The position numbers and the translations under genes are program-made. A stretch of DNA of 64,000 nt from Corynebacterium yudongzhengii (GTDB lineage: Bacteria; Actinomycetota; Actinomycetes; Mycobacteriales; Mycobacteriaceae), in assembly GCF_003065405.1 (NCBI RefSeq), contig NZ_CP026947.1, positions 806,001 through 870,000 on the forward strand. The letters are read 5' to 3'. Below are positions 41,559 to 50,154 of this stretch, piece after piece. The notes below the pieces were generated by a model. It was not told the origin of the DNA. It made no database searches and saw only the letters and a list, made by a program, of their open reading frames with translations. Within the stretch, counting starts at the first letter, position 1, and each line of letters begins with the position of its first letter.

Positions 41559-41565
41559 TGCCACC

Positions 41566-42306
41566 ATGACGTTTACACTCCTCCCCGCGGTCGACGTCGT
41601 CGACGGGCAGGCCGTCCGCCTCGATCGGGGCGAGGCCGGCACCGAGAAGTCTTATGGCAGCCCCTTAGAGGCGGCGCTTAACTGGCAGGAGCAGGGCGCC
41701 GAGTGGCTGCACTTCGTCGACTTGGACGCCGCCTTCGGCCGCGGCTCGAACCACGAGCTCATGGCCGAGATCACCCGCACGCTGGATATCCACGTGGAAC
41801 TCACCGGCGGGATCCGCGACGACGCCTCCCTCGAGCGCGCCCTCGCTACCGGCGCCGAGCGCGTCAACATCGGCACCGCGGCCCTGCAGCGCCCGGAGTG
41901 GATCAGCCGGGTCATCCGTGAGCACGGCGAGCGCATCGGCATCGATATCGCCGTGACCGAAGTAGACGGCAGCTACCGCACGAAGGGTAACGGCTGGGTC
42001 TCCGACGGCGGCGATCTCTGGGAGGTCCTCGAGCGTCTCGACGCCGCCGGCACCCGCCGCTTCATCGTCACCGACGTCTCCCGCGACGGCATGCTCTCCG
42101 GCGCCAACATCGAGCTCTTAAGGGATGTCTCCGCCGCCACCGACGCCGCGGTCACCGCCTCTGGCGGGATCTCTTCGCTGGATGATGTCCTGGCGGTCGC
42201 CGAGTATGCCGACGAGGGCATCGACTCGGTGATCATCGGCAAGGCGCTCTACGAGAAGCGCTTCACCCTGGTGGAGGCGCTCGCGGCCGTCGAGAAGCTG
42301 GGGTAG
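41566..42306 (+). CDS. hisA: ProFAR isomerase HisA (corynebacterial subHisA type)
   Basis: Isomerises ProFAR to PRFAR in histidine synthesis. The 246-residue TIM barrel begins [15 protein letters not shown], with [20 protein letters not shown] and DVSRDGML. Compared by eye with M. tuberculosis PriA, the protein is very similar but has Thr80 where PriA has the serine needed for TrpF activity, and Asn142 where PriA has the key arginine (KGNGW against RGRGW). These are changes described for the corynebacterial enzyme that reverted to HisA-only function. Inference: it does not make tryptophan intermediates. Confidence 0.93.
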
Positions 42307-43894: not shown

Positions 43895-44275
43895 ATGGCA
43901 GACTCCGAGAACCCGCAGGATTATGACCTCGATCCCGAGGTGAAAAAGCGCGTGCGCTTCAACGCCGACGGGCTCGTGCCGGCGGTCGTCCAGGCCGCGG
44001 AGACCGGCGAGGTGCTCATGCTCGCCTGGATGGATGAGCACGCGCTGGCCTATACGCTGGCGAGCGCCCGCGGTACCTATTATTCGCGCTCCCGGCAGGA
44101 GTACTGGATCAAGGGCTTGACCTCCGGCAACACCCAGGAGGTCACCGAGGCCCGCCTCGATTGCGACGGCGACACCGTGCTTATGAAGGTCCACCAGAAG
44201 GGCGGGGCCTGCCACACCGGCGATCGCACCTGCTTTGATGCCGATCAGTTGTTCAAGGAGGGAGACGATGAGTAG
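43895..44275 (+). CDS. hisI: Phosphoribosyl-AMP cyclohydrolase
   Basis: Opens the adenine ring of PR-AMP. The 126-residue monofunctional HisI contains [28 protein letters not shown] and the metal-binding region [10 protein letters not shown]…CHTGDRTCF. There is no fused HisE domain. Its 3' end overlaps the next gene by 8 nt (ATGAGTAG). Confidence 0.96.
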
Positions 44276-44954
44276 CGCTGTCAGCTCGACGGAAGCCATC
44301 CGGTCCCGCTCCCGGCGCAAGGGGCGCATCGGCGCCTTGCTGCTGGGCCTCGGCGCGTTGATCCTCTGGATCGGCTCGCGGATGAGGTGGGTGTCCGTCG
44401 ACGTCAACGACGAGCTCTCCGGCGCCTCCCAGCACGAGCTGGTCGGGGCCACCTGGTCCACGGAGTCGATGGCGGTCGCTTTGGTCCTACTCGTCGCCAT
44501 GATCGCGGGCCTGGCTTTGCGACGCCTCGGTCGCCGCCTGTCCGGCATCATCGGGGCCCTCGCCGCGGTGGGGGTCAGCCTCACGCCTGTGCGCCTGCTC
44601 ACCGCCGGAGCCGACCCCGAGCGCGCCCACAACCTGCTATTGACGGGTGCGGCCTCCCAGCGCGCCGACGCCCCGGTGAGCATCGCCGAGTGGGCGGAGG
44701 TCACGGCCACCTCGGTGCAGGCGGCCGGCCCGGTGGTGGCGCTGATCGGGGCGGCCGTCGCCGTGTTCGGCGCAGTTTTGCTCGCCACCCAGCCGGGCGC
44801 CGACGGCGCGAAGATGAACAAGTACGAACGCGCCGCCGCCCGCCGCGAAAAGCTCGCCGAGGACTTGGAGAATTCTCCGGATTCCGGGCGCGTCATGTGG
44901 GACGCGCTTGACGATGACATCGACCCCACCGACACTTCCGCCGACCGCCGTTAA
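44268..44954 (+). CDS. Trp-associated membrane protein (TIGR02234 type), relic of trp operon
   Basis: A 228-residue protein with four membrane helices ([73 protein letters not shown]). An acidic C-terminal tail follows. It corresponds to the mycobacterial membrane protein encoded between trpE and trpC (Rv1610 position). Here trpE is absent and hisI abuts directly. ATG 44268 overlaps the hisI stop, which decides the start over a longer frame. Function unknown; historically linked to tryptophan genes only by position. Confidence 0.78.
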
Positions 44955-45035
44955 GGGGGCTGATTTCCGGCTCCCCGCGCCCTTTGGATACGCTGCACGT
45001 GTGATCATCGGCACGGAGCCAGCCGGGAGGTGTGT

Positions 45036-45848
45036 ATGGGTGCGCCCTTGCCCGTGGATCGGGTAGTCGCGGGCATCCTCGAAGATGTGGCGGCCCGGGA
45101 GTCGCGCACATCCTTCCAGGAGATCAAAAGGCTCTCCACAACGGGCCCGGAGCCTAGGGACGCCGCGGCGGCGATCCTGCGCAGCGGCTGCGGCGTCGTC
45201 GCCGAAATCAAACGCAAGATCCCCCCGACCGGTGCGGACGTGCCCATCGACTCCGTCGGCGACATCGCATCCTTACTCGAAGACTCCGGGGTGCACATGG
45301 TCGCCTGCCAGACCGAGAAGCTGCGCTTCGCCGGCTCGCTGGAGGACATGTCCGCCGCCCGCCACGCCGTCGAGCTGCCGATGATGTGCCGCGACATCAT
45401 CGTCGATCCCTACCAGATCCACGAGGCCCGCTACTACGGCGCCGACATGGTGCCCTTGCAGGTCGAACTCCTCGACCAGGCCCGCCTCATCTCTTTGATC
45501 GACCGCATCGAATCGCTCGGCATGACCGCGCTCGCCGAGGTGCGCACCCCCGAAGAAGCCGACCGAGCCTTAGACGCCGGCTGCCGGGTCATCGGGGTCA
45601 ACGCGTGGTCGATCAACAACTCGCGCATCGACCGCGAGAACTTCGCCGCCATCGTCCCCGGCCTCCCGCAGGACGTGTTGCGCATCGCCCTCGGTGGGGT
45701 GCGCACCTCCCACGACCTTCTGGCGTATGCCGCCGCCGGGGCCGATGCTGTGCTCGTCGGCGAGTCGATCATGAGTGCTGCGGATCCCGCCGGCGCCGCC
45801 CGCACGCTGGTGGCCACCGGCCAGCACCCGGCGTGCCCGACGCGCTAG
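45036..45848 (+). CDS. trpC: Indole-3-glycerol-phosphate synthase homologue with altered active site
   Basis: A 270-residue TIM barrel clearly homologous to TrpC over its full length (closely similar to M. tuberculosis TrpC by eye). Several catalytic positions differ. The general-acid lysine of LRKDF is Arg119 (MCRDI), the serine of KRASPS is Ile62, the arginine of VNARD is Trp191, and the Glu-Ser of IAESG is Leu219-Gly220. Glu57, Lys59, Glu168 and Asn189 remain. Normal IGPS activity is therefore doubtful. GGGAGG precedes ATG 45036. It sits between the Trp-associated membrane protein and lgt, the ancestral trpC position, with no trpE, trpB or trpA. Confidence 0.85.
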
Positions 45849-45873: not shown

Positions 45874-46770
45874 ATGATCACCGCGAACATCCCGTCCCCG
45901 CCGCAGGGCGTGTGGGACATCGGCGGATTCCCGCTGCGTGCCTACGCGATCTGCATCATCATTGGCATCCTGGTGGCCCTGTGGCTCACGGTGCGTCGCT
46001 ACACCGCCCGGGGCGGGGACCCCAACGATGTGTGGGACGCCGCGATCGTCGCCATCCCCGCCGGCCTCATCGGCGGGCGTCTCTACCACGTGATCACCGA
46101 CGCCCCGAAGTACTTCGGCGAGGACGGTAACCCCTGGCAGGCCTTCAACATCACCGCCGGCGGGCTTGGCATCTGGGGTGCGGTCGCCCTCGGCGGTATT
46201 GCCGTGTGGGTGCTGTTCCGCTTCAAAAACGTCCCGCTCGCGCCTTTTGCCGACGCCGTCGCCCCCGGCATCATCCTCGCCCAGGGCATCGGCCGGCTGG
46301 GCAACTGGTTCAACCAGGAGCTCTACGGGCGCGAAACCGAGGTTCCCTGGGCGCTGGAGATCTACTACCGCGTCGACGAGACCGGCCAGTTCGCGCCGCT
46401 GACTGGGCGTTCGACCGGCGAGGTCATCGCCACCGTGCACCCGACCTTTCTCTATGAGCTGCTGTGGAACGTCGCGGTGTTCTTCCTGCTCATCTGGGCG
46501 GATAGGTACTTCCGCCTCGGTCACGGCCGCGTGTTCGCCCTCTACGTCGCCGGGTACACCGCTGGCCGCTTCTGGATCGAGCTGCTGCGTGCCGACGAAG
46601 CCACCATGATCCTCGGCCTCCGCGTCAACACCTGGGTCTCCGCGCTCGTGTTCATCGCGGCCGTCATCATCTTCTTCCTACTCAAGTCGGGCCGCGAAAC
46701 CCCGCGGGAGGTCGATCCCCGCCCGCGCGACGAGGACGGCGAGCTCATCAAGTCCGCCCGTGAGCGCTAG
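45874..46770 (+). CDS. lgt: Prolipoprotein diacylglyceryl transferase
   Basis: Attaches diacylglycerol to the lipobox cysteine of prolipoproteins in the cytoplasmic membrane. The 298-residue protein has about seven helices and the signature [20 protein letters not shown]. Earlier [16 protein letters not shown] and the [10 protein letters not shown] segments also fit, as does the [11 protein letters not shown] motif. ATG 45874 is chosen from the -10 box 7 nt upstream. Three lipoproteins and LspA are encoded elsewhere in this window. pyk follows. Confidence 0.96.
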
Positions 46771-46796: not shown

Positions 46797-46802
46797 TAGG
46801 GT
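46797..46802 (+). promoter_or_regulatory. -10 box of leaderless pyk
   Basis: TAGGGT is followed by exactly 7 nt and GTG 46810. An in-frame GTG at 46801 lies within this box. Confidence 0.5.
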
Positions 46803-46809
46803 GGTAGCC

Positions 46810-48255
46810 GTGGATAGAAGAACGAAGATCGTTTGTACACTTGGCCCGGCCGTGGCCAGCAAGGAGGGCATCCTCGAGCTGGTCCGTTCCGGCATGAACG
46901 TCGCCCGGATGAACTTCTCCCACGGAGAGCACCCGGAGCATGAGCAGAACTACCGCTGGGTCCGGGAGGCGACCGACGAGACCGGCCACGCCGTCGGCAT
47001 CCTCGCCGATTTGCAGGGCCCGAAGATCCGCCTCGGCCGTTTCGAAAGCGGCTCGACCTACTGGGAGAACGGGGAGGTCGTGCGCATCACCGTCGACGAT
47101 GTCGCCGGCACCCACGATCGCGTCTCCACCACGTATAAGAACCTGGCCCAGGACGCGAAGCCGGGCGATCGCCTGCTGGTCGATGACGGCAAGGTCGCCC
47201 TCGTATGCAAAGAGGTCGACGGCAACGACGTCGTCTGCGAAGTCGTCGAAGGCGGGCCCGTGTCGAACAACAAGGGCGTCTCCCTGCCGGGCATGGACAT
47301 CTCCGTGCCGGCGCTGTCGGAGAAAGACATCGCGGATCTGCGTTTTGCGATGGAGCTCGGCGTCGACTTCGTTGCCCTCTCCTTCGTCCGTTCCCCGGCC
47401 GATGTCGATCTGGTCTACGAGATCATGGACGAGTTCGGCTACCGCGTGCCGGTCATCGCGAAGCTGGAGAAGCCCGAGGCCGTCGACGCGCTCGAATCCA
47501 TCGTCTTAGCTTTCGACGGCGTGATGGTCGCCCGCGGTGACCTGGGCGTGGAGATCCCGCTCGAGGACGTGCCCCTGGTACAGAAGCGCGCCATCCAGAT
47601 CGCCCGGGAGAATGCGAAGCCGGCGATCGTCGCCACGCAAATGCTCGACTCCATGATCGAGTCCTCCCGCCCGACCCGCGCCGAGGCCTCGGATGTGGCC
47701 AACGCCGTCCTCGACGGCGCCGACGCGGTCATGCTCTCCGGCGAGACGTCGATCGGCAAGGACCCGCACAACGTGGTGCGCACCATGGCCCGCATCGTCC
47801 GCGTCGCCGAACGCGACGGGCACGTGCCGCCGCTGAGCCACGTGCCGCGCACCAAGCGCGGAGTCATCTCTTACTCCGCCCGCGACATCGCTGAGCGCCT
47901 CGGCGCCCGCGCCTTGGTGGCGTTTACCACCTCGGGCGATACCGCCAAGCGCGTGGCGCGTTTGCACTCGCCGCTGCCGCTGCTCGTGTTCACCCCGCAC
48001 CCCTCGGTGCGCTCGCAGTTGGCGCTGACCTGGGGCGCGGAGACCTTCCTGTGTCACTCCATCGAGTCCACCGATGAGATGATGCACGTCCTCGACGCCG
48101 AGCTGCTGCGCCTCGAGGAGTACCAGGAAAACGACATGATGGTCGTCGTCGCCGGTACCCCGCCCGGGGTATCCGGCAACACCAACATGATCCACGTGCA
48201 CATGCTGGGCGAGGACGTGACCGTCCCGAAGCACCACCAGGATCACCTGCGCTAG
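46810..48255 (+). CDS. pyk: Pyruvate kinase
   Basis: Converts phosphoenolpyruvate and ADP to pyruvate and ATP. The 481-residue enzyme starts MDRRTKIVCTLGPAVAS, as in C. glutamicum. RMNFSHG, the barrel lysine region IAKLEKPEAV, the metal-site region MVARGDLGVE and the MLDSMIESSRPTRAE segment are all present. The C-terminal allosteric domain is complete. GTG 46810 is chosen because it gives the conserved N-terminus and has a -10 box 7 nt upstream. Confidence 0.97.
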   Translation: MDRRTKIVCTLGPAVASKEGILELVRSGMNVARMNFSHGEHPEHEQNYRWVREATDETGHAVGILADLQGPKIRLGRFESGSTYWENGEVVRITVDDVAGTHDRVSTTYKNLAQDAKPGDRLLVDDGKVALVCKEVDGNDVVCEVVEGGPVSNNKGVSLPGMDISVPALSEKDIADLRFAMELGVDFVALSFVRSPADVDLVYEIMDEFGYRVPVIAKLEKPEAVDALESIVLAFDGVMVARGDLGVEIPLEDVPLVQKRAIQIARENAKPAIVATQMLDSMIESSRPTRAEASDVANAVLDGADAVMLSGETSIGKDPHNVVRTMARIVRVAERDGHVPPLSHVPRTKRGVISYSARDIAERLGARALVAFTTSGDTAKRVARLHSPLPLLVFTPHPSVRSQLALTWGAETFLCHSIESTDEMMHVLDAELLRLEEYQENDMMVVVAGTPPGVSGNTNMIHVHMLGEDVTVPKHHQDHLR

Positions 48256-48268
48256 GTGCTTGGTGGGG

Positions 48269-49198
48269 CTAGTCGATCGGCTCGTAGTGCTTGCGCGCTG
48301 CCTCTGAGAGGCCGATCGGCTGGTCGTTGTCGTCGTAGACGTAGAAGCCTTCGCCGGATTCGACTCCGATCTTGCCCTTGTCGATGAAGTCTTCCTTGAT
48401 CCGGCGGCAGTACTCCGCGGCGGACGCGTCGCCTTGTGCCGCCCGGTTCTTGTTGATGTTATAGCTGACGTTCAGCCCGATGTTGTCCAGCGCCTGGAAG
48501 GGCCGCAGGTCGGGTCCGCCTGCGATGACCTCGGCGACGTCGTCGATCGTTTCGATGTCGACCACACCTTTCACCCACAACTCGTGGGCATACTTCAGCC
48601 ACGTGGAAAACAGCGAGTTGATCACGTAGGCGGGATGCTCGCGGTGCAGGCGCACCGGTTTCATGCCCATCTCGCGGGCGAAGTCGACGACGGCGTCGGT
48701 GACAGCCGGGTCGGTATCAGGCGTCGGCATGATCTCCACGATGTTCTTGAGATGAATATCGTTGGCGAAGTGATACGCCAGGAACTTCTCCGGCCGGCCG
48801 GTGGCGTCTTTCATGTCGCTGGGTAAGAGGGTCGAGGTGTTGGTGAGCAGCACCGTCTTGTCCTCGAGGAAGGGTGCAAGGGTGGTGTAGGTCGTGCGTT
48901 TGATCTCGAGGTTTTCCGGCACCGCCTCGATGATGTAGTCCGCGTCCTGGGCGGCTTCCTCTAAAGAGGTGGTCATGCGGATGTTTTCGAGGGCCTTATC
49001 GGCCTGCTGCTTATCGACGCTCTCCAGGTCCCGCACATAGTTGCCCGCGATCGTGCGCATGCGGGTGCGCGCCGCGTCGACGGCGTCGTCGTCGATATCG
49101 AAAGAGGTCACGCGGTGGCCGCTAAAAGCGGCGCGGTAGGCGATCTGGGCGCCGAGGTTGCCGGCGCCTAAGACGGCGATGGTTCGTGCGGTGGTCAT
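48269..49198 (-). CDS. 3-hydroxyacyl-CoA dehydrogenase-family protein (downstream twin)
   Basis: A 309-residue NAD(P)-dependent dehydrogenase. The Rossmann motif VLGAGNLGAQIA is at residues 9-20, and the C-terminal helical domain includes HPAYVINSLFSTW. The catalytic His143 lies in AYHFANDIHL with Glu155. The usual HFFNP signature is altered (HFAND), so the substrate may not be a standard acyl-CoA. It lies 26 nt after its upstream paralogue, with AAGGAT before the ATG; the two proteins align without gaps and are about three quarters identical by eye. Confidence 0.87.
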   Translation of the reverse strand: MTTARTIAVLGAGNLGAQIAYRAAFSGHRVTSFDIDDDAVDAARTRMRTIAGNYVRDLESVDKQQADKALENIRMTTSLEEAAQDADYIIEAVPENLEIKRTTYTTLAPFLEDKTVLLTNTSTLLPSDMKDATGRPEKFLAYHFANDIHLKNIVEIMPTPDTDPAVTDAVVDFAREMGMKPVRLHREHPAYVINSLFSTWLKYAHELWVKGVVDIETIDDVAEVIAGGPDLRPFQALDNIGLNVSYNINKNRAAQGDASAAEYCRRIKEDFIDKGKIGVESGEGFYVYDDNDQPIGLSEAARKHYEPID

Positions 49199-49224: not shown

Positions 49225-50154
49225 TTAGTCGATGGGTTCGTAGTGTTTGTGTGCCGCGTCCGAGAGACGGATCGGCCGGCGCTCGTCGTCGTAGATGTAG
49301 AAGCCCTCGCCCGATTCGATCCCGATGTGGCCTTTGTCCATGAAGTCTTCTTTGATGCGCCGGCAGTACTCTGCCGCTGCGGCATCGCCCTCGGCAGCCC
49401 GGACCTTGTTGACGTTGTAGCTCACGTTGAACCCGATGCGATCCTGCGCGTAGAAGGGCCGCAGGTCAGGTCCGCTTGCGATGACCTCGGCGACGTCATC
49501 GATCGTTTCGATATCTGCCACGCCCTTGACCCACAGGTCGCGGGCGTGCCGCATCCACGTGGAAAACAGCGAGTTGATCACGTAGCCGGCGTGCTCGCGG
49601 TGCAGGCGGATCGGCTTCATGCCCAACGTGCGGGCGAAATCGACCACGGCGTCGGTGACTTCCGGGTCGGTCTCTCGCGTGGGCATGATCTCCACGATGT
49701 TTCTCAGGTGAATCGTGTTGGCGAAGTGATACGCCAAAAACTTCTCCGGCCGGCCGGTGGCATCCATCATGTCGCTCGGCAGTAGGAGAGATGTGTTGGT
49801 CAGCAGTACCGTCTTCTCCTCCAGCTGCGGCGCGAGCTGGGCGTAGGTGGCGCGTTTGACCTCGAGGTTTTCCGGTGCCGCCTCGATGATGAAGTCCGCG
49901 CCCTGGGCGGCTTCTGCTAGCGAGGTGGTCATGCGGATCTTATCCGGGACCTTATCGGCTTGGTGCTTATCGACGTCTTCCAAATCCCGCACATAGTTCT
50001 CAGCGATCTTGTGCATGCGGGTACGGGCCGCCGCAACGGCGTCGTCGCTGATGTCATAAGAGGTCACGCGATGCCCGAAGAACCCCAGGCGGTAGGCAAT
50101 CGGAGCTCCCAGGTTGCCCGCGCCTAGGACAGCCACGGTGTGCGCTGCGGTCAT
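49225..50154 (-). CDS. 3-hydroxyacyl-CoA dehydrogenase-family protein (upstream twin)
   Basis: A 309-residue paralogue of the protein at 48269, with Rossmann motif VLGAGNLGAPIA and active-site region AYHFANTIHL. Both end with the identical HYEPID tail. AAGGAG precedes the ATG at 50154. It is the first gene of the pair, and divergent from an MFS transporter across 550 bp that contain a CRP/GlxR-type site and another palindrome. Probably a catabolic dehydrogenase for a hydroxy acid or its CoA ester; the substrate is not known. Confidence 0.87.
   Translation of the reverse strand: MTAAHTVAVLGAGNLGAPIAYRLGFFGHRVTSYDISDDAVAAARTRMHKIAENYVRDLEDVDKHQADKVPDKIRMTTSLAEAAQGADFIIEAAPENLEVKRATYAQLAPQLEEKTVLLTNTSLLLPSDMMDATGRPEKFLAYHFANTIHLRNIVEIMPTRETDPEVTDAVVDFARTLGMKPIRLHREHAGYVINSLFSTWMRHARDLWVKGVADIETIDDVAEVIASGPDLRPFYAQDRIGFNVSYNVNKVRAAEGDAAAAEYCRRIKEDFMDKGHIGIESGEGFYIYDDERRPIRLSDAAHKHYEPID

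Follow-up and report, generated by a model that had tools for sequence, protein, structure and literature searches.

A TrpC homologue without IGPS catalytic residues is retained beside a putative membrane partner in Corynebacterium

Indole-3-glycerol phosphate synthase (IGPS, TrpC) depends on a lysine of the third strand and on the Glu and Ser of its IAESG motif, roles that come from work on IGPS enzymes other than the one described here. The protein that we call TRPC' is of the same family and length as the solved TrpC chains 4fb7 and 3qja (PDB), the latter being the M. tuberculosis enzyme. It aligns to them over nearly its whole length and shares PYQIHEAR and an HPxCP tail. In contrast to them, it lacks the general-acid Lys, the Glu-Ser of IAESG, the Ser of KRASPS and the Arg of VNAR, and its locus is devoid of trpE, trpB and trpA. 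The adjacent protein, here called X, belongs to the Trp-associated membrane proteins of PF09534/TIGR02234 (Rv1610; by its place also cg2294), scoring above both curated cut-offs, and differs from the described members in having a TrpC without catalytic residues beside it. The literature searched, as far as its text was accessible, gave no tested function for a protein of this family.

In C. glutamicum, two papers give the order of the his operon as hisHA-impA-hisFI-cg2294 and the function of cg2294 as unknown (PMC3896937; PMC6432763). A third report lists cg2293 as a putative IGPS of 261 residues (PMC6691914). By position and annotation, cg2293 is apparently TRPC' and cg2294 is apparently X. 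How a trp operon was transferred into Corynebacterium, and how this affected HisA/PriA, is described in PMC5404923. There, the PriA of Corynebacterium lost its TrpF role after the transfer and became SubHisA, a comparable case in which an enzyme of the recipient changed once trp genes had arrived. SubHisA retains one reaction, however, whereas TRPC' seems to retain none. Another small protein encoded in a trp locus, Streptomyces coelicolor TrpM (formerly trpX, SCO2038), has an effect on tryptophan synthesis. According to the text available it is encoded between trpC and trpB (trpCXBA) and is described there with no WxALDxxxDPT tail (PMC5036795); TrpM is not the X of this study. Our search of the open-licence literature, with subscription journals outside its scope, found no study of the Corynebacterium TRPC', of an IGPS pseudoenzyme or of the X motif.

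The window, a stretch of 64,000 nucleotides from C. yudongzhengii, covers positions 806001-870000 of a single-contig genome of 2.51 Mb. Its ORFs and profile searches bear out the gene order hisI-X-TRPC'-lgt-pyk of the original prediction, with X and TRPC' both on the + strand and with no trpE, trpB or trpA between hisI and lgt. The last two ORFs are presumably lgt and pyk, names that come from that prediction (Table 1). Since GGGAGG lies directly 5' of ATG 45036, this codon is a likelier start of TRPC' than GTG 45030. Residues of TRPC' are numbered from GTG 45030 throughout, an offset of two residues from the earlier count, which began at ATG 45036. Downstream of pyk, the - strand encodes two adjacent and mutually similar 3-hydroxyacyl-CoA dehydrogenase relatives of 309 residues (48269-49198 and 49225-50154; PF02737, PF00725), a tandem duplicate. 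The HisA of the window (41560-42306) has the bifunctional hisA-trpF model as its top match (408 bits), although the genome holds trpF within TrpCF; going by the literature it would be SubHisA.

Table 1. Features of the hisI-pyk locus, in window coordinates
Feature	Position	Strand	Basis
hisI, upstream context	43895..44275	+	PF01502, 112.7 bits
X, PF09534/TIGR02234 membrane protein	44268..44954	+	PF09534 161.1 bits; TIGR02234 176.3 bits
X C-terminal motif WxALDxxxDPT, residues 211-221, proposed docking peptide	44898..44930	+	conservation in 49 aligned X
TRPC', IGPS-related protein without IGPS catalytic residues	45036..45848 (alternative start GTG 45030)	+	PF00218, 166.1 bits
C54 codon of TRPC'	45189..45191	+	Val in 28/28 single-copy TrpC, Cys in 100/101 TRPC'
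R121 codon of TRPC', replaces general-acid Lys	45390..45392	+	Lys in 28/28 single-copy TrpC, in 6/101 TRPC'
Residues 126-139, best conserved stretch of TRPC'	45405..45446	+	mean entropy 0.08 bits, chosen positions
W193 codon of TRPC', replaces Arg of VNAR	45606..45608	+	Arg in 28/28 single-copy TrpC; W in 44, R in 39 of 101 TRPC'
L221-G222 codons of TRPC', replace Glu-Ser of IAESG	45690..45695	+	E221 lost in 101/101, S222 retained in 37/101
C-terminal tail GQHPAC of TRPC', residues 264-269	45819..45836	+	H266 and P267 in 101/101, C269 in 97/101
lgt (presumed), downstream context	45874..46770	+	ORF
pyk (presumed), downstream context	46801..48255	+	ORF

The PF00218 match of the window TRPC' is full-length (cut-off 27 bits, model positions 2-254 of 254). 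In the alignment to 4fb7 and 3qja (E about 2e-76) the general-acid Lys is replaced by R121, the Ser of KRASPS by I64, the Arg of VNAR by W193 and the Glu-Ser of IAESG by L221-G222; E59, K61, E170 and N191 are retained. These are the replacements first reported as Arg119, Ile62, Trp191, Leu219 and Gly220, which are right when counted from the ATG, and the proposed comparison with functional TrpC and with the corynebacterial copies at this locus confirmed them.

It had also been proposed to look for a complete trp operon elsewhere, and the lack of any other IGPS in the genome had been named as a sign that TRPC' still works as TrpC. A second IGPS is present (C1:2482266, 279.1 bits), and it sits in a complete operon of the order trpE, trpG, trpD, trpCF, trpB, trpA; the names of these neighbors come from reading their translations, with trpB additionally used as a search query. 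The translation of this TrpCF carries the usual residues (MECKSSSPS, CKDF, TEA, GINHRN, SESG). In one other genome (G144, one contig, 99% complete) the sole IGPS match is its own TRPC' and no trpB match was found in the contig, yet X, TRPC', lgt and pyk are all kept. We infer that this strain is a tryptophan auxotroph. For C. glutamicum, a frameshift in cg2293 with a stop at residue 55 is reported in strain EVO5, which was harvested after 1,700 generations of growth on glucose minimal medium (PMC6691914). Therefore, cg2293 is dispensable in a strain that lives in this medium. In transposon screens of C. glutamicum, the listed tryptophan auxotrophs lie in cg3359-cg3364 (PMC1590026).

PF00218 matches were found in all 201 genomes of the genus Corynebacterium, and the TRPC' and X queries each gave matches in 241 of 242 genomes. 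Among 80 chosen genomes, 47 were single-copy, defined by an E 1e-66 or better match at a working-type TrpC and no TrpCF-like second copy, and 28 of their loci were examined. All 28 have the order trpE-X-trpC-trpB-trpA-lgt-pyk, with hisI also visible in 27 (not in L090). The collapsed sample comprised 101 loci, the 30 closest to the window and 71 chosen to span low identity too. Here, trpB, trpA and a same-strand trpE are absent from all 101 within the stretch examined, which for 30 of them included flanks of only 1.5 kb; five loci have a weak trpE-like match on the opposite strand (L103, L105, L131, L155, L156). Ninety-nine of the collapsed loci include X within the stretch examined; in the other two (L038, L059) it lies farther away. 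Hence, the view that corynebacteria use a trp operon acquired elsewhere applies to no more than a part of the genus, since 28 of 28 single-copy loci retain the old gene set. The best 80 of 584 named relatives consist of 43 collapsed Corynebacterium loci (L213-L255, with C. tapiri as the closest, 71%), one single-copy Corynebacterium locus (L256) and 36 loci of other genera or unclassified Mycobacteriales. A second hisI-TrpC-lgt-pyk arrangement without trpE, trpB, trpA and X was seen in a Mycobacteriales MAG outside Corynebacterium that has another IGPS (L268, 4007-4813); its TrpC carries S64C, S66K and S222A and keeps K121 and E221.

Positions 59, 61, 64, 121, 170, 191, 193, 221 and 222 are invariant in the 28 single-copy TrpC. 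Among the 101 TRPC', E221 is kept in none, K121 in 6, S64 in 20, S222 in 37 and R193 in 39; E59 remains in 87, K61 in 81, E170 in 92 and N191 in 81. The same division is seen in the best 80 of 584 named relatives, where the 43 collapsed loci keep E221 in no case and K121 in two, and the other 37 all keep both. Judged by its sequence, TRPC' lacks residues that IGPS catalysis needs, and it very likely has no IGPS activity.

In a TrpC tree made with a quick method, in which four rows have very long branches, 46 TRPC' rows form one clade (SH-aLRT 100) with a stem of 0.45 changes per column, and TRPC' evolves faster than working TrpC. On a single collapse of the locus the trees point both ways. The one clade would fit it, but L090 (G240), a single-copy locus with a working TrpC and the full trp genes, pairs with the collapsed L255 amid collapsed rows when the tree is built from pyk, lgt and hisF (support 0.94), a position that a single collapse does not explain. 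The median dN/dS of TRPC' is 0.107 (range 0.029-0.215; 25 of 37 nearest pairs, those with dS < 1.5), compared to 0.108 for working TrpC (11 of 12 nearest pairs, same limit), so that the selection test proposed earlier points to purifying selection. For the neighbors, the values of collapsed versus single-copy loci are 0.113 and 0.181 for X, 0.095 and 0.136 for lgt, and 0.045 and 0.044 for pyk. If a pseudoenzyme is a protein that has lost catalytic residues and is under purifying selection, TRPC' is a predicted pseudoenzyme. The original prediction that the gene was kept after its pathway had left is well supported by the one clade, by purifying selection and by its persistence in the genome without trpB or another IGPS.

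The distribution of conservation within TRPC' was compared with that in single-copy TrpC using Shannon entropy, with the conserved position sets chosen after the alignment had been inspected. From single-copy TrpC to the 101 TRPC', the nine catalytic positions rise from 0.00 to 1.40 bits, the phosphate loops from 0.11 to 1.56 and all positions from 0.69 to 1.54. Conversely, entropy falls in the set of P117 and 126-139 (0.23 to 0.08 bits), at positions 53-54 (1.22 to 0.04) and in the tail (0.51 to 0.12), and positions 156-165 are nearly unchanged (0.15 and 0.19). Subsamples of 28 TRPC' rows gave the same picture. Nearly fixed in TRPC' are C54, DPYQxHEAR and the HPxC tail, with V54C and D126 as derived states in 100 of 101 copies each. 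Variable catalytic positions next to near-fixed residues elsewhere favor a non-catalytic binding role, and we consider it likely, given where conservation now lies, that TRPC' persists as a folded protein that binds a partner and no longer catalyses.

Alternatively, a remodelled active site could make TRPC' a new enzyme or a sensor of a small phosphorylated or aromatic ligand. E59, K61, E170, N191 and G223 are present in most TRPC', and the first four of these, which a bound ligand would need, count against a non-catalytic role. New site residues are moreover common to large groups (R121 in 80, W193 in 44, L, V, M or I at 221 in 99 and H172R in 87 of 101). However, the catalytic positions are on average barely better conserved than the whole of TRPC' (1.40 versus 1.54 bits). 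In rows L092-L106, E59, K61, K121, N191 and R193 are mostly replaced (K61 and K121 lost in 15 of 15 rows, E59 in 13 of 15), whereas dN/dS within pairs stays low (0.02/0.31 and 0.05/1.20, for example); P117, D126-Q129, H131-A133, R159, H266 and P267 are invariant in these rows. We therefore regard a new enzyme or sensor as somewhat unlikely. The suggestion of a new ligand or reaction made in the original prediction consequently loses ground at the catalytic positions, and the four retained residues leave room for a ligand.

If TRPC' is a non-catalytic binding protein, X is its most probable partner, a proposal that rests on gene pairing and motif conservation and to which we give about an even chance. 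A simple hydropathy scan of X finds four hydrophobic segments (about 19-39, 58-84, 93-111 and 156-174), and since the N terminus and the 85-92 loop carry positive charges, both termini are probably cytosolic. In 49 aligned X, G60, R90, R192, W211 and D219 are invariant, and Y186, R208, D215, P220 and T221 are among the columns conserved at 90% or more; half of those conserved columns fall in the 54-residue tail. The fixed DNA form of the motif has one match in its own genome. As a pattern, W..[LIMV]..[GD].[DE][PF][TS] precedes TrpC in all 28 single-copy loci, once at a distance of 1620 nt, and TRPC' in 99 of the 101 collapsed ones, there with gaps of 14-390 nt. Five loci (L099-L102, L104) have an X motif that ends in DFT, not DPT, and one genome (G229) has a shortened X with the motif kept beside TRPC'. 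An in-frame stop within the matched stretch was seen in at least 10 of the listed X matches (G140, G094, G019, G191 and G209, for example), and the X reading in L222 likewise holds a stop; these may be real breaks or wrong ends.

At the class level, the motif W..[LIMV]..G.[DE]P[TS] was found in 33 of 40 loci; over 526,868 six-frame residues it matched 33 times forward and never in reverse. A looser pattern adds one locus (L179), and six have no motif (L176, L177, L178, L180, L183, L197), at least one of which, L180, is cut by a contig end. Fourteen of the 40 loci had been chosen since PF09534 was absent (13) or below its cut-off (G373). In 11 of these 14, and in L204, we found a short form, mini-X, which consists of one hydrophobic transmembrane helix followed by the motif. 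Family f20, which contains small actinobacterial genomes, has only mini-X in all 12 loci examined, and its stop abuts or overlaps the trpC start. The mini-X frames (L166-L175, L179, L204) have 49-73 codons, carry WxxLDxGxDPT directly 5' of trpC and give no PF09534 match or one below the cut-off. X is thus the natural partner candidate: together with TRPC' it is all that remains of the old trp cluster, its tail is peptide-like and conserved, and elsewhere this tail sits on a minimal anchor just before trpC.

Two more specific proposals for the contact were rejected. The HP tail as the element that binds X does not hold up, since it is present in 22 of 28 class-level loci outside f20 and in 0 of 12 within f20 despite mini-X. 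Five loci combine X with a TrpC without this tail (L181, L188, L191, L198, L200), and working TrpC has the tail as well. Its absence from all 12 TrpC beside mini-X counts against the X partnership. Similarly, a change from G to D in the X motif as a mark of a partner change fails. G is found in 27 of 28 single-copy loci and D in most collapsed ones, but D also occurs in L090, whose TrpC is of the working kind, and G in several collapsed loci, so that the motif shows no clean covariation with collapse.

TRPC' could instead be kept to bind a partner other than X, such as another envelope or cytosolic protein, with its place beside X reflecting inherited gene order. Two draft genomes (G058, 91% complete; G234, 93% complete) have X with the motif directly before lgt and no TRPC' between, which is the clearest fact against an obligate pair; the presence of TRPC' was left unjudged in G195 (a run of N at 5002-5906 of L206 over its place), G131 (82% complete) and G226 (87%). 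PF09534 is found in 176 of 197 class-level genomes, mostly with a working TrpC, and X and trpC are usually non-adjacent in the other class-level loci, where, if both are seen, the stop of X mostly lies 0.8-2.5 kb from trpC. Against a different partner stands that TRPC' and X together are what is left of the old trp genes in 99 of 101 collapsed loci, and that mini-X abuts trpC in f20. In a comparison of 58 of the 101 rows, TRPC' distances follow those of X (partial r 0.33, 0 of 500 permutations), with values of 0.22 for hisI (2 of 500) and 0.13 for lgt, and X distances follow lgt (0.48) more than TRPC'. On balance we judge a partner other than X to be unlikely.

We consider it very improbable that TRPC' is a nonfunctional relic in slow decay. 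It has been lost in G058 and G234, is very divergent in G008 (where GC, YQLHEHR and HPA are still visible in the frame), evolves faster than working TrpC and was frameshifted in the evolved laboratory strain (cg2293). On the other side, its dN/dS equals that of working TrpC, the TRPC' matches listed contain no in-frame stop, and C54 and D126 are fixed in all but one copy. That it is a still working, if weak, IGPS isoenzyme, as its full-length PF00218 match far above the cut-off and K121 in six copies might suggest, can practically be dismissed, since E221 is lost in 101 and K121 in 95 of 101 copies, the best NCBIfam TrpC model (equivalog NF001369) gives 294.2 bits, below its cut-off of 329, and TRPC' is kept where trpB is missing.

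The reading that we prefer, and that we hold to be about as probable as all else together, is that TRPC' is a redundant, inherited IGPS kept as a non-catalytic binding protein with X as its partner. TRPC' would be the vertically inherited IGPS of Corynebacterium, redundant in genomes whose second trp operon is complete and encodes a TrpCF fusion. The old locus would then have lost trpE, trpB and trpA, and TRPC' its catalytic residues. The cytosolic-looking C-tail of X, with its WxALDxxxDPT motif, would hold TRPC' at the membrane, and TRPC' might, at a guess, stabilize or regulate X. In other actinobacteria a working TrpC would be tethered likewise while still making indole-3-glycerol phosphate. 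More broadly, and with less confidence, we propose that the TrpC of actinomycetes may have two jobs, synthesis of indole-3-glycerol phosphate and docking on X or mini-X via this motif, of which pathway replacement in Corynebacterium would have left docking only.

TRPC' offers a natural separation of two possible TrpC functions: in part of one genus catalysis seems to be gone and something else is still selected. For annotation, this means that it should not be named indole-3-glycerol phosphate synthase, nor be proposed as a drug target on that basis. The partnership with X and the short motif can be tested directly in C. glutamicum, which is both a laboratory and an industrial strain. The data suggest that the widespread PF09534 protein may serve as the membrane anchor of a tryptophan enzyme, and that a short form of it with 49-54 residues, undetected or weakly scored by Pfam, may be encoded in small actinobacterial genomes. 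If TrpC indeed has two jobs, Corynebacterium would reveal a second, membrane-tethered function in a textbook enzyme of tryptophan synthesis.
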